A stretch of 42,990 nt of DNA from Ignavibacteriota bacterium (lineage in GTDB: Bacteria > Bacteroidota > Ignavibacteria > UBA10030): NCBI GenBank assembly GCA_003142475.1, contig PLMK01000042.1, positions 87,966 to 130,955 on the forward strand, given 5' to 3'. Shown one piece after another: positions 14,005 to 19,305 of the stretch. Each line of letters starts with the position of its first letter. The stretch's first letter is position 1. A model generated the notes under the pieces. It saw only the letters and a list, made by a program, of their open reading frames with translations, made no database searches and had not been told where the DNA came from. The translations under genes were made by a program, and so were the position numbers.

Positions 14005-15054
14005 TTATATATTGTTTTTATAGTGAACAATCGACAATGATCTCAAAACCTCTGCACTATATTCTGGAGTAATATCTCTTTGAGGTTCAGCGAGCATTTC
14101 ATAACCAACCATAAATTTTTTTATACTTGCAGAACGCAACAGCGGCGGATAAAAATGCATATGAAAATGCCATTCCGAGTGATTTTTTCCATCGGTCGGT
14201 GCTTGATGCAGCCCTGAGGAATAGGGAAACGATGTCTTAAAGAGATTGTCGTACTTGATCGTCACCACGCTTATCGCGTTGGCAAAATCTTTTTTTTCCG
14301 TTTCCTTTAACTGAAGAATGTGAGGCATCCTTCTTTTGGAAATAACGATTGTTTCGTACGGCCAGACAGCCCAGAAGGGCACAAGAACTGCAAACGAATT
14401 ATTTTCGTAAACAATTCTTTCTTTTATTTGTAGTTCCAGCTTGAGATAATCTGCTAAAAGACTACGCTTCTTTTTCATGTAATACGATTTAAATTGCTTC
14501 GATTCTTTTAACGGCTCCATTGGAATACTTTCCTGAGCCCAGATCTGCCCATGAGGATGTGGATTACTATTCCCCATGAGAGATCCCTTATTCTCAAAGA
14601 TTTGAATATGGTTTATTCGCGGATGAGATCCTAATGAGCTATATTCATGTTGCCATGCAGTAATAACTTCTTCTATTTCACTTTCCTGCATCTCTGCAAG
14701 AGTCAAATCATGCCGAGGTGTAAAATTCACAACTCTGCAAATGCCTCTTTCAGTTTTCAGAGAAAGCAAATTATTTTTATTCGGTTTATTGGAAGGAATA
14801 TCCTCTAGTAAAGCAGAAAAATCATTCGTAAAAATATATGTAGATGTGTATTGAGGATTGATTGTTCCATTTGCCCGTTTGTTTCCTGGACACAAATAAC
14901 AGTCAGGTTCATATGATTGTCTTTTTTCATTAGTCGGAGATGATATTTCTCCCTGCCATGGGCGATTCGTTCGATGGGGAGAAACCAACACCCATTCCCC
15001 GGTAAGGATATTTTTTCTTCGATGAGGAATATGAAATAACTCAGGCTGCTTCAT
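14005..15054 (-). CDS. galT: Galactose-1-phosphate uridylyltransferase
   Basis: The 349-residue protein has the length of class I GalT. The active-site sequence SNPHPHGQIWAQE contains the His-Pro-His triad (166-168), with His168 the residue uridylylated by UDP-glucose. Cys52 and Cys55 in CYLCPGN are zinc ligands in related enzymes. The enzyme exchanges UMP between UDP-glucose and galactose-1-P. The gene overlaps the end of galK by 14 bases, which indicates translational coupling. A UDP-galactose 4-epimerase needed to complete the cycle is not visible in this window. Confidence 0.95.
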   Translation of the reverse strand: MKQPELFHIPHRRKNILTGEWVLVSPHRTNRPWQGEISSPTNEKRQSYEPDCYLCPGNKRANGTINPQYTSTYIFTNDFSALLEDIPSNKPNKNNLLSLKTERGICRVVNFTPRHDLTLAEMQESEIEEVITAWQHEYSSLGSHPRINHIQIFENKGSLMGNSNPHPHGQIWAQESIPMEPLKESKQFKSYYMKKKRSLLADYLKLELQIKERIVYENNSFAVLVPFWAVWPYETIVISKRRMPHILQLKETEKKDFANAISVVTIKYDNLFKTSFPYSSGLHQAPTDGKNHSEWHFHMHFYPPLLRSASIKKFMVGYEMLAEPQRDITPEYSAEVLRSLSIVHYKNNI

Positions 15055-16216
15055 GATTCTTCCTAGTGATGATATCCGTCCCAGAACTGATTGAGGTGAT
15101 ATATGTTTTGAGATCTATATTGAATTTCTGTTTATATCTTTCAGTCACCATTTTACTTACATCATTAACATGGTTGTTTTCAATGAGATTAATCGTACAT
15201 CCACCAAATCCGCCTCCCATCATTCGCGAGCCATAGATTTGCGGATCGTCTTGGACTAGTTCTACCAAGTAATCGAGTTCCTTGCAACTCACCTCGTAGT
15301 CGCGGCTTAATCCTTCATGCGTTCTTGACATATACATGCCAAAAGCTTTTAAATCTCCCTTCTCCAGTTCTCGACATGCTTGTAGAACCCGATCATTTTC
15401 TTCTACTACATATTTACACCTTCGATAGACCGTTGCATCCATCTTGTCCTTGCATTTTCGGATCATATCTACAGAGACATCTCGCAAAGAGTCTACCTCC
15501 GGATTACATGTTTTTATGATTGTGACTCCCTCACCACATTCTTCTCTCCTTCGATTATATGCTGATGATGCCAACGAATGTGAGACACGTGTATCAAAGA
15601 GAACGATAGAGACGTTGTGAAAAGCAAATGGATAATATTTATATTCTAACGAGCGGCAATCAATTCGAAGAACATTGTCCTGCTTACCAAAAATGTTTAT
15701 GTATTGATCCATAATGCCACACTGAACACCCACAAATCTATTCTCAGCTTTTTGAGCAAACTTTACCAAAGCAAGATCATCAATTCGTAATTCGAACATA
15801 TGGTTAAGGGCAAATGCCAAACCTGCTTCGAGTGCGGCTGAAGATGACATCCCTGCGCCAATGGGAATATCACCTCCAAAGACACAGTTAAACCCTTGTA
15901 TCATATACTGTGCATGGATTAATTGATCCACTACACCCATCAGATAATTAGGCCACCCTTTTTTTGTAACTTGAATATCATCGATGGAGAACTCATATTC
16001 ATCGTTCATATCCATTGCGACTACAATACATTGCCGATCTTTGCGTGGCGCGATTGCGAAATAGATGGATTTGTCAATAGCCGCCGGAAGGACATACCCT
16101 TTGTTATAATCCGTATGTTCACCAATCAGATTCACTCTTCCTGGTGAACGAATCAATAGGGGTTGTTCATTAAATTTTTTCCGGAAGATCGCTTCGACAG
16201 ATTCTGCAAGGTTCAT
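15041..16216 (-). CDS. galK: Galactokinase
   Basis: The 391-residue GHMP kinase has all galactokinase signatures: PGRVNLIGEHTDY (25-37), the ATP-binding loop IPIGAGMSSSAAL (117-129), CGIMDQ with catalytic Asp170, and GSRMMGGGFGGCTINL near the C-terminus. It phosphorylates alpha-galactose at O1. AAGGTG lies upstream of the ATG. The gene follows the small membrane protein and sodium/sugar symporter by short gaps and overlaps galT, so uptake and phosphorylation of galactose look like one transcript. Confidence 0.96.
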   Translation of the reverse strand: MNLAESVEAIFRKKFNEQPLLIRSPGRVNLIGEHTDYNKGYVLPAAIDKSIYFAIAPRKDRQCIVVAMDMNDEYEFSIDDIQVTKKGWPNYLMGVVDQLIHAQYMIQGFNCVFGGDIPIGAGMSSSAALEAGLAFALNHMFELRIDDLALVKFAQKAENRFVGVQCGIMDQYINIFGKQDNVLRIDCRSLEYKYYPFAFHNVSIVLFDTRVSHSLASSAYNRRREECGEGVTIIKTCNPEVDSLRDVSVDMIRKCKDKMDATVYRRCKYVVEENDRVLQACRELEKGDLKAFGMYMSRTHEGLSRDYEVSCKELDYLVELVQDDPQIYGSRMMGGGFGGCTINLIENNHVNDVSKMVTERYKQKFNIDLKTYITSISSGTDIITRKNHEAA

Positions 16217-16223
16217 GATATGT

Positions 16224-16439
16224 TCACCTTGTTTGATTTCTCATCTTTAAATAGAGCCCGCCTCCAAAAATAATCATAAGACCTCCCCACCATAAATTGG
16301 GATGCATTTCAGCTAATACTGTTTTGACAGCAGGTGGATTGAAAAAAAGATAGATACCGCTGCAAAAAACCAGCCCTCCGATCACCAGGACTATCAATCC
16401 AACAAAATACCAAATAGGTTTCATTCCTTGCTCAGACAT
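16224..16439 (-). CDS. Small two-helix membrane protein between sglT and galK
   Basis: This 71-residue protein has two hydrophobic segments (IWYFVGLIVLVIGGLVFCSG, about 9-28, and LWWGGLMIIFGGGLYL, about 49-64) separated by a loop with NPP and AEMHPN, and a basic C-terminus (KMRNQTR). It has a strong AAGGAG site, lies 15 bases after the symporter gene and 7 bases before galK, and uses codons like its neighbours, so it is very probably a real gene. I do not recognise its family. The position recalls small two-helix partners encoded beside other sodium:solute symporters, such as YhdT with PanF. A role as accessory subunit of the symporter is inference. Confidence 0.8.
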   Translation of the reverse strand: MSEQGMKPIWYFVGLIVLVIGGLVFCSGIYLFFNPPAVKTVLAEMHPNLWWGGLMIIFGGGLYLKMRNQTR

Positions 16440-16454
16440 AGTGTTTCTCCTTAA

Positions 16455-18131
16455 TTACCAAAACCAAATATTCAGTAAAATGAAAATGATCAAAGAAATA
16501 ATCGCATAAAATTCAGGCCTCTTCATGAATGGAATATTCTGATCGTGTTTCTCCTTGGTTAATCCTTTCACCAAACCGACGAGTTCTTCTTTCGGTCTCT
16601 TTTTTGTGAATAGACTCACTAATATTGTCACGGTAGCACAAATCAGCCACGCCCACCATGCACGCCAGAAGTTTGCCGCCATGTCGCTCTGAACGCTCGA
16701 CATCGTGATGATACTCTCTGCAAACCAATGAAACTTGACAGCGAAATACATCAGTATTGATGAAAGCATTCCTGCCACAAGACCCCAGAAAGCCCCGTTT
16801 GGTGTAATCCACCAGAGAAACATACCTAAAAGCATGGTTGCAAACAGTGGAGCATTAACCCAAGAAAAGATTGCCTGCATATAATCCATAATGCTTGGGA
16901 AACCTTTTGCCCAGTATGCAGTCACCAGAGAAAGAATGACGCCGACAATTGTTGATACTCGTCCCATCCAGAGAAGATGTGCATCGGATGCTTTTTTGTT
17001 CAATACAGATTTATAGATGTCATATGTCCATACTGTATTAAAAGCACTGATGTTTCCTGCTTGTCCCGCCATAAATCCAGCCAGTAATGCAGTCACTCCT
17101 AAGCCAACCAATCCCGGCGGATAGTACCGAGCTATCAATAGCGGCAATGCAGAGTCATAATTCACCTGTCCTCCATCATGTAATAATTTGAAGCCACTCT
17201 TCGGGTCTATCGAAAGAGCGATCGCTATCAATCCAGCAAGGATAACAATGAACGGTAAGGCCATTTTAAAAAATGAAGCAAGGATAGGAGTCATACGTGC
17301 CGAACGCAAATCCTTTGCCGAGAATGCTCGTTGGACGACAAGAAAATCCGTTGTCCAATATCCAAAGGATAAAACAAATCCAAGACCAAGCACGATGCCG
17401 CCCCAATGAACCAACATGCCATTCAGCATCGGGTTAGAAGAGGTCGACCATAATGTGGTAAAGGAAACCTGAGGACTATATGTGTTTATCCGTGCCATAA
17501 TTTCGCTGACACTTCCAATCTCGATGATACCGAGAATCGAAACAAGAAATAATCCAAACCAAATTAAAAAGAATTGAATAATTTCTGTAAAGATTGCTGA
17601 CAGCAAGCCGCTTAAGGTGACATACCCTGCTACTGTAATTGCCGATGCCCACATGCTGTAATCCCAATTCCAACCCAGGAATGTATGCAGAACAAGAGCC
17701 ATAGCGTAAAGATTGATACCAGAAACAAGGAGTGTCATTATGGCAAATGCAATACCGTTTAAGACACGTGTCTTTTCATCAAAACGAAGTTTGAGATAGC
17801 CGGGGATAGAATTGATTTTACTGCTATAATAAAACGGCATCATATAAATGCCTAGAAAAAGCATTGCAGGAATGGCGCCGATCCAATAAAAATGTGCAAC
17901 ATACATCCCATATTTGAACGTATTACCGGTCATACCAAGTAATTCAAGAGCTCCGAGGTTCGCTGAAAGGAATGCAAGACCTGCAACCCATGTAGAATTC
18001 TTTCTTCCTGCAAGGAAGAAATCTTCTTGACTTTTTGTATATCGACGAAGATACAAACCGATACCAAGCACAAATGCGAAATAAATGAATATTATAATCC
18101 AGTCAATAAATGAAAGGCCTATTGCTTCCAT
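16455..18131 (-). CDS. Sodium:solute symporter, SGLT/galactose type
   Basis: From ATG 18131 the protein has 558 residues, starting MEAIGLSFIDWIIIF, with AAGGGA eight bases upstream. A TTG start 54 bases higher would add a lysine-rich tail with no ribosome-binding site. About 14 helices can be followed. Family features are SQEDFFLAGRKNSTWVAG, the unwound TM1 region (AFLSANLGALELLGMTG), SGLLSAIFTEIIQFFL and FVVLGL-type helices ending in ILLNIWFW, close to the ending of the Vibrio galactose transporter. SSS proteins couple sugar uptake to Na+. Its place directly before galK and galT supports galactose (or glucose) as substrate. A promoter and operator-like site lie upstream between it and lacI. 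Confidence 0.9.
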   Translation of the reverse strand: MEAIGLSFIDWIIIFIYFAFVLGIGLYLRRYTKSQEDFFLAGRKNSTWVAGLAFLSANLGALELLGMTGNTFKYGMYVAHFYWIGAIPAMLFLGIYMMPFYYSSKINSIPGYLKLRFDEKTRVLNGIAFAIMTLLVSGINLYAMALVLHTFLGWNWDYSMWASAITVAGYVTLSGLLSAIFTEIIQFFLIWFGLFLVSILGIIEIGSVSEIMARINTYSPQVSFTTLWSTSSNPMLNGMLVHWGGIVLGLGFVLSFGYWTTDFLVVQRAFSAKDLRSARMTPILASFFKMALPFIVILAGLIAIALSIDPKSGFKLLHDGGQVNYDSALPLLIARYYPPGLVGLGVTALLAGFMAGQAGNISAFNTVWTYDIYKSVLNKKASDAHLLWMGRVSTIVGVILSLVTAYWAKGFPSIMDYMQAIFSWVNAPLFATMLLGMFLWWITPNGAFWGLVAGMLSSILMYFAVKFHWFAESIITMSSVQSDMAANFWRAWWAWLICATVTILVSLFTKKRPKEELVGLVKGLTKEKHDQNIPFMKRPEFYAIISLIIFILLNIWFW

Positions 18132-18291: not shown

Positions 18292-19305
18292 TTAGGTTGA
18301 TCCGCGTTCAATCAGTGTAGCATCCAAAATCAGTGTTTTAGGCTCCAATAATTTACCTTCTATTGTTTGGATGAGTATCTCTGCAGCTTTTTTTCCCATT
18401 TCAAAAGAAGGCTGGTCAATGGTCGTAATTTGAGGATCAACTAAACCAGTAATTTTATTATTGGAAAATCCCATAATTGCTATATCACCAGGAATTTTCA
18501 ATTTTGCTTCTTTTATTTTTTGATAAGCGCCAAGTGCAACTGGATCATTGACGGCAAAAATAGCATCTGGAATAATATTTTCATTAAGCAGAACATTCAT
18601 AGAATTATATCCGTCCTGCTCATGCATCCCGCCATATTGCACAAATCCATTATTCAAAAACATTTGGGCATGTTTGAGTGCGTCAAAATATCCGCTTAAT
18701 CTTTTTTTACAAACAAATAATTCCCTTGGTCCAGCAAAATGGGCTATCCTTTTATATCCTCTGCTAATAAGGTAAGTAACAGCATCAAATGCACATTTAT
18801 AATCATCAATCATTACCTTGCTTGCCACTACATCATCGCAAACACGATCAAAAAATACCAAAGGAATTCTTCTTCTCAGGAGATCCTGAAAATGCTCTCC
18901 GTTTTTTGTGTTTTGAGAGATAGAAACAATAACTCCTGCGACACGATGATGCATAAGTACATTCGTATTAAGAACTTCTCTTTCATAACTTTCATTCGAT
19001 TGGCATAAAATAATCGTGTATCCAGATTGATACGCAACTTCTTCTATCCCGCTGATCGCTGAAGAGAAAAAATCATGCTTTATTTCCGGTACGATAACAC
19101 CTATTGTAGTTGTTCGATTACTTTTTAGACTTTGAGCAATTGGGTTTGGAGTATACTTTAATTCCTTGGCGATTTTTCGTACGAGTTCTTTCGTTTCACT
19201 CTTAATATCAGGATGATCATTTAGTGCACGGGATACTGTTGACGCGGAAATGCCTAGTCTATTTGCAATATCAATGATAGTCGTATGTATTGTGACATTT
19301 TTCAC
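18292..19305 (-). CDS. LacI-family transcriptional repressor
   Basis: The 337-residue protein has the LacI helix-turn-helix IIDIANRLGISASTVSRALNDHP (about 10-32), the hinge NPIAQSLKSNRTTTIGVIVPEI and a periplasmic-binding-protein-like effector domain to the end, with VPLVFFDR and DAIFAVNDPVALGAY typical of sugar-responsive members. It starts at GTG, the first in-frame start after an upstream stop. Its promoter and a tandem repeat sit immediately before it, suggesting autoregulation. As the only DNA-binding protein in the region and adjacent to the transporter and gal genes, it probably represses this glycan locus until a sugar inducer, perhaps galactose or a manno-oligosaccharide, binds. The inducer is unknown. 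Confidence 0.92.
   Translation of the reverse strand: MKNVTIHTTIIDIANRLGISASTVSRALNDHPDIKSETKELVRKIAKELKYTPNPIAQSLKSNRTTTIGVIVPEIKHDFFSSAISGIEEVAYQSGYTIILCQSNESYEREVLNTNVLMHHRVAGVIVSISQNTKNGEHFQDLLRRRIPLVFFDRVCDDVVASKVMIDDYKCAFDAVTYLISRGYKRIAHFAGPRELFVCKKRLSGYFDALKHAQMFLNNGFVQYGGMHEQDGYNSMNVLLNENIIPDAIFAVNDPVALGAYQKIKEAKLKIPGDIAIMGFSNNKITGLVDPQITTIDQPSFEMGKKAAEILIQTIEGKLLEPKTLILDATLIERGST

Follow-up and report, generated by a model that had tools for sequence, protein, structure and literature searches.

We propose that the 71-residue membrane protein encoded at positions 16224-16439 of the window (by which we mean the whole 42,990-nucleotide stretch of DNA analyzed here) is probably a constitutive accessory subunit, that is, a second subunit, of the SSS symporter encoded just upstream. 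This reading is favored by a linkage between the two genes that is nearly without exception in many phyla, together with sequence distances of the small protein that track those of the symporter, while three symporters of the same clade that lack such a neighbor and the exceptional loci L113, L142 and L036 speak against it. The genes of the putative operon all lie on the minus strand, in the order LacI regulator, SSS symporter, small gene, galK and galT (Table 1).

Table 1. Features of the window around the small gene (positions are those of the window).
Feature	Position	Strand	Remarks
galT, galactose-1-phosphate uridylyltransferase	14005..15054	minus	Pfam GalP_UDP_transf and GalP_UDP_tr_C
galK, galactokinase	15041..16216	minus	Pfam GalKase_gal_bdg and GHMP domains; a neighbor, not a constant partner
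Gene for 71-aa two-helix membrane protein, subfamily A of the putative small partner	16224..16439	minus	Purifying selection, invariant columns, two predicted helices
Spacer, symporter stop to small-gene ATG	16440..16454	minus	15 nt, holds AAGGAG Shine-Dalgarno site
SSS (SLC5) symporter, 558 aa, partner-bearing clade	16455..18131	minus	SGLT-type fold; last hydrophobic helix ends at the C-terminus
LacI-family regulator, upstream of symporter	18292..19305	minus	Pfam LacI and Peripla_BP_3

The small gene is a real, protein-coding gene of 71 codons. It starts with ATG, and the 18 bases 5' of this codon, TAATTAAGGAGAAACACT, contain the symporter stop and, after it, a strong AAGGAG site. The first-pass annotation described a 71-residue open reading frame between the symporter and galK with minimal spacing on either side, and both points hold, with the frame on the minus strand, the symporter stop 15 nt before its ATG and the galK start 7 nt past its stop. 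Homologues of the small protein are present in 30 of 61 genomes (its own, which is counted, and relatives). Comparison with four relatives carrying an ungapped homologue (L010-L013) gave dN/dS values of 0.085, 0.088, 0.165, and 0.108, which are ratios of the computed dN and dS (the L010 symporter comparison seems out of register and was left out), and because these values lie between 0.085 and 0.165 in all four, we attribute them to purifying selection on the small protein itself. As a control, 370 non-SSS frames of at least 250 aa, which were open frames rather than called genes, were searched for a frame of 55-95 aa, predicted to form two helices, within 60 nt downstream; five had one, compared with 64 of 76 SSS genes searched with the same detector. 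A chance open frame was rejected on both grounds, that is, dN/dS of 0.09-0.17 and the control. It is scarcely credible, either, that the frame serves translation only, by coupling the symporter to galK in the way reported for cbrX and cbrA. The short gaps on both sides would suit such a role, and cbrX provides a precedent as quoted in passages of one paper (PMC9100948), but the dN/dS values and the residues that are invariant across phyla indicate selection on the protein, and the downstream gene varies between loci.

AlphaFold2, supplied with 34 aligned sequences, predicts helices at residues 9-33 and 47-67 of the small protein with a mean pLDDT of 82.8, in agreement with the two-helix topology proposed at first pass. 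The mean net charge over 71 small proteins is +0.97 at the N end, −0.65 in the loop and +1.75 at the C end, and this positive-inside bias suggests that both ends are cytoplasmic. The homologues fall into two subfamilies. Type A, which has PIWYFVG or IPIWFFIG in its first helix and opens its second with WWG, follows the motif PIWYFVG...G......P...TVLAE.HP..WWG......G, and its invariant columns among 36 sequences are I9, W10, G14, G21, W50, W51, G52, and G59. Type B, which adjoins one branch of the symporter clade, follows the pattern LDIRLPIGLLF...IYxRSLGINVNLxWG. The two types are related by a profile comparison in which type B was represented by only six sequences (hhalign probability 97.9, E 4.5e-13), and the loci span Ignavibacteria/Bacteroidota, Acidobacteriota, Planctomycetota, Gemmatimonadota, Actinomycetota, and others.

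Among the small proteins with scores printed, none reached the cut-off of a Pfam family, the nearest being DUF5671 (26.9 bits against a cut-off of 28.4, for the L031 protein only). In NCBIfam, the sole score over a cut-off was that of LPXTG_anchor on the window protein (16 against 15.9 bits, E 0.015, with no stretch passing), a borderline score that we read as chance on a hydrophobic tail, and the NCBIfam scan of the small proteins matched no small SSS partner family. Four Pfam families of such partners, DUF997 (YhdT), DUF485 (which we take to be YjcH), DUF3311 and DUF4212, were not found by hmmscan of the window protein against Pfam-A at E 1, nor for 18 members at E 0.01 or 10 members at E 0.001. 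On these Pfam-A and NCBIfam scans, we rejected the idea that the protein belongs to one of the known families of small SSS partners. A PDB search with the small protein returned three weak matches (best E 0.017), and the small-family profile A3 matched none of the PDB chain sequences at E 0.1. In addition, the best-ranked matches from the open-access literature contained no description of a small partner of sugar SSS carriers. The protein had been called unrecognized at first pass, which agrees with the outcome of the Pfam scans, in which no cut-off was reached, and of NCBIfam, with its single borderline LPXTG_anchor score. To judge from its sequences, the family is without an informative counterpart in Pfam or NCBIfam and differs from the known small SSS partners.

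A scan of 84,980 species genomes yielded 252 relatives of the small protein, of which the best 80 were kept as loci. In 78 of these best 80 of 252, an SSS gene lies directly upstream on the same strand, with a widest gap of 394 nt and a median gap of 15 nt in the 71 of 78 loci with a settable start. The genome of the window itself has two small-gene copies, each directly behind its own clade symporter. Within the set of relatives, a symporter is found upstream in 30 of 31 distinct loci; at the exception, L036 in genome G027, the symporter has decayed to short remnants and the small frame is open but without an ATG. A small-protein match was found in 20 of 296 genomes of the phylum, at 24 places, 23 of which are no more than about 120 nt from a symporter by coordinate comparison, the other being cut by the contig start. 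At L113 (6001-6195), the small gene adjoins galK with no SSS gene nearby, in a genome that the window symporter does not match at 1e-40; this copy may be an orphan or may reflect an incomplete assembly. L142 is an orphan copy, without an SSS gene upstream. A natural fusion of symporter and small protein was rejected, there being no long-enough open frame among the matches listed, and the 265-aa open stretches of L021 and L024 are in a different frame from the symporter gene that they overlap.

Searching from the symporter (E 1e-60) gave 30 of the 61 genomes, 29 of them shared with the small protein. In the thirtieth, G009, the small gene is broken by an assembly gap, and in G027 the small protein occurs without a symporter match at the decayed locus. 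In the phylum of an Acidobacterial relative, clade-type symporters were found in 30 of 149 genomes, at 44 places or more. Acidobacterial loci chosen by the symporter alone had a small gene (A or B) in 28 of 28 cases, with gaps from −7 to +31 nt, and among 12 further places chosen by the symporter, nine had the small gene. The remaining three (L239, L243, and L244) are clade symporters of Acidobacterial genomes without an adjacent small gene.

When all loci were pooled, leaving out SSS frames shorter than 400 aa and duplicates whose last 350 residues were identical, there were 174 distinct SSS genes, of which 144 fall in the partner-bearing clade, two of these being cut by a contig end. A small gene lies downstream of 139 of the 142 readable clade symporters (114 of type A and 25 of type B); many of the 142 loci were fetched via the small protein and so provide no independent test, while the others were chosen by the symporter. 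Partner types were called by motif because, in many true homologues, the second helix escapes the hydropathy rule; nine were assigned by eye (L240, L245, L247, and L250 as B; L035, L047, L049, L096, and L110 as A), type B being read from the printed sequence for L250, and a few small genes lie more than 130 nt downstream of the symporter. Of SSS genes outside the clade, for which 130 nt downstream were read, 28 of 30 lacked any frame of 40-130 aa with a predicted helix within this distance, and one of 30 (L188) was followed by a two-helix gene of unrelated sequence. In many lineages, the small gene is next to an SSS gene and runs in the same direction. The neighborhood search proposed in the first-pass annotation, which had suggested a link to SSS symporters, found the homologues linked rather than scattered, both forward (78 of the best 80 of 252) and in reverse (139 of 142).

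Two other small open reading frames were observed beside SSS genes. The SSS protein of L188 is 34% identical, and a different two-helix open reading frame of 69 aa, without a Pfam or NCBIfam match, follows its gene after 1 nt, possibly representing another small-partner family. In L008, on the reverse strand, a 47-aa single-helix open reading frame lies just upstream of a further SSS gene from the window's genome and overlaps its start; this frame is also without a Pfam or NCBIfam match.

A different companion for the small protein would be galK, in which case it might act in galactose metabolism or its regulation and have the symporter nearby only through the shared gal operon. We consider this highly improbable. 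Of the 74 loci with room, 41 do have galK no more than 600 nt downstream, and the L113 copy adjoins galK without an SSS gene, but at loci with symporters of less than 70% identity galK was within 600 nt in 0 of 10 and the small gene was still present. Across 37 loci in which all three genes are present, sequence distances of the small protein correlated with those of the symporter at r 0.76 and with those of galK at r 0.40, galK here being the best match in the locus and not always the adjacent copy. The corresponding partial correlations were 0.71 for small protein and symporter and 0.11 for small protein and galK, the latter once the symporter is accounted for, and none of 2000 permutations gave a value as high as that for the symporter. 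A tie of the small gene to galK instead of the symporter was rejected on the 0 of 10 divergent loci and the partial r of 0.11, and on these distances the small protein follows the symporter, not galK.

The window symporter belongs to the SSS/SLC5 superfamily, based on its matches to Pfam SSF (PF00474; E 7.9e-48, 163.7 bits against a cut-off of 22.8) and TIGR00813 (218.5 bits against 184) and on its SLC5-type fold; it also matches the vSGLT chain 2xq2 at E 1e-49. In a tree of 97 SSS proteins built without the Na2 columns, a quick tree in which some outgroup branches are very long, the partner-bearing clade comprises 70 rows with an SH-aLRT of 100. The small gene accompanies 68 of 70 rows inside the clade and 0 of 27 outside it (the unrelated gene of L188 not counted), and Gly at position 356 is a single change on this tree. 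At the positions of the vSGLT Na2 serines, which we take to be S364 and S365, the window symporter has A355 and G356 and thus lacks the canonical pair. The clade as a whole has Ala/Ser-Gly in place of the serines, with G356 in 143 of 144 rows (the one deviating row, L027, comes from a frame-split gene that was read out of frame), whereas 28 of 30 outside the clade have Ser or Thr at 356.

The sugar site also departs from that of vSGLT. At the seven galactose-site positions of vSGLT, presumably Q69, E88, S91, N142, N260, K294, and Q428, the window symporter has E, Y, G, S, S, K, and Q, so that two of seven are kept (K294 and Q428; the aligned chain 2xq2 is the K294A mutant) and a vSGLT-type galactose site is not found. 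Q69 and E88 correspond to E63 and Y82 of the window symporter, which occur in 112 of 112 and 141 of 141 clade rows with a letter there, with Phe at Y82 in the Nocardia record. This record is one of four named plasmid records (Gemmatirosa, Nonomuraea, Nocardia, and Tsukamurella) by which type B was extended by eye; their symporters have the clade's Glu and Gly, and a B-like gene, annotated as a hypothetical protein in Tsukamurella, lies directly downstream. The symporter of a fifth plasmid-record match, Catenovulum, has an intact Ser pair and no B-like gene downstream. Since the Na2 serine pair and several galactose-site residues are not conserved, the label of sodium/galactose carrier is unsafe, which applies also to the first-pass description of an SGLT-like galactose carrier. 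It is the operon that suggests a galactose carrier, pointing to galactose or a galactoside as the substrate.

The coupling ion of the clade is uncertain, and the loss of the Na2 pair, whose counterpart in hSGLT2 is S392 and S393 in passages of the structural work (PMC10803289), is no demonstration of proton coupling. In CbrA, for which passages of a review (PMC7918813) describe non-conserved Na2 residues, a proton gradient appears to stimulate transport.

A close homologue of the symporter, from L081, was modeled as an artificial fusion with the small protein (mean pLDDT 71.1, pTM 0.74). The model can be superposed on NIS, with Z 37.5 and an rmsd of 2.8 over 481 residues, and on hSGLT2, with Z 35.6 and an rmsd of 2.8 over 512 (model residues 4-558 on chain residues 19-672), and Foldseek and VIA matched its symporter part, and no other, to SGLT, vSGLT and NIS chains. 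A last hydrophobic helix is present in the window symporter as in hSGLT2, and the model can be aligned as far as the C-terminal helix of hSGLT2, albeit in its low-confidence part. In hSGLT2, TM13 is contacted by the helix of MAP17, as described in passages of PMC10803289, and because the model superposes on NIS and hSGLT2, the carrier of the window probably has this TM13 helix. In the fusion model, the small-protein part formed a hairpin of fair quality (pLDDT 66-88 in blocks of ten), the last symporter helix at residues 539-557 was of low confidence (about 35-57), and the model, read without coordinates or PAE, gives no docking site. That the small protein docks on TM13 of the symporter is a guess by analogy with MAP17.

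The C-terminus of the symporter is itself constant in position: in 140 of 141 clade rows with a stop codon, the last residue coincides with the exact end of the window symporter, and 111 end in FW. Bare, conserved and placed where the last helix ends, this C-terminus could serve for contact with a partner.

Taken together, we hypothesize that the small protein and the symporter would be made from one message and would form a stable complex needed for the full amount or activity of the carrier. More speculatively, the small protein may lie in the membrane against the last helix of the symporter (TM13 in SGLT numbering), where MAP17 touches SGLT2, and may support a carrier from which the usual Na2 serine has disappeared. 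Alternatively, the small protein might be an assembly or stability factor that helps to insert the nascent symporter or shields it from proteolysis while remaining outside the working carrier. Its gene does lie just after that of the symporter, and small proteins that guard transporters from FtsH, MgtS and MgtU, are described in passages of PMC10710835; however, the presence of one copy for each clade symporter in a single genome and the matching distances of small protein and symporter favor a dedicated partner, and we regard such a factor as unlikely. The small protein could also inhibit or tune the symporter, as SgrT does with PtsG. Small proteins that inhibit transporters exist (passages of PMC10710835), but a gene that sits with that of its carrier instead of elsewhere, and has a strong ribosome-binding site in front, suits a constant partner, which makes an inhibitor decidedly unlikely.

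If the accessory-subunit reading is extended, the clade might constitute a two-subunit SGLT-fold system that combines loss of the canonical Na2 serine, a conserved Glu in the sugar site and dependence on a dedicated two-helix subunit at the last helix, and that may hence be coupled to protons or otherwise rather than to sodium. We put this forward as possible but rather doubtful. An accessory subunit of an SGLT-type carrier would, if the reading is correct, have arisen in bacteria separately from MAP17 in animals. A near-obligate partner missing from Pfam and NCBIfam would also mean that carriers of this clade are being annotated, and maybe expressed, without part of their complex, and a clade without the Na2 serine would offer a natural test of coupling ion against accessory subunits in the SGLT fold.

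SSS carriers are usually treated as single-chain machines, and vSGLT is active alone, a point against the accessory-subunit reading. In a term search, the main text of a 2021 review of prokaryotic SSS contained none of the terms 'subunit', 'YhdT' or 'DUF' (PMC7918813). MAP17 (PDZK1IP1), the accessory subunit of human SGLT1 and SGLT2, resembles the window protein as a small membrane protein with an SGLT-fold carrier, but has one membrane helix where two are predicted in the window protein. The A3 profile search, in which no PDB chain was matched at E 0.1, also served as the comparison with MAP17. To our knowledge, the MAP17 gene does not lie beside the gene of its carrier.

In bacteria, DUF997 (YhdT) is paired with PanF, and DUF4212 with SSS proteins of the VC_2705 type. 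Passages of two papers describe further cases, in which yjcH, a gene for a small membrane protein, adjoins the SSS gene in the acs-yjcH-actP operon (PMC6498577) and a DUF3311 gene adjoins that of MctP (PMC9100948), and the function of such SSS-adjacent small genes is given as unknown in the passages concerned (PMC6498577, PMC9100948, and, for DUF485, PMC5715377). In Pseudomonas fluorescens, deletion of the DUF485 gene had a negligible effect on growth on acetate, which also counts against an accessory subunit here, but deletion of actP had as little effect (passages of PMC5715377). Compared with DUF485, DUF3311, DUF997 and DUF4212, the window gene differs in lying downstream of its SSS gene, in another SSS clade. 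MetS of Corynebacterium glutamicum is a small membrane protein needed by the LeuT-fold carrier MetP of the NSS family, a likeness by description, MetP being of another transporter family than the window symporter. CbrA, also likened by description, resembles the window symporter as an SSS protein with non-conserved Na2 residues, but has a fused sensor kinase and histidine as substrate. Genes for small membrane proteins beside SSS genes are already known as a kind, and the family described here matches none of the known ones by sequence.
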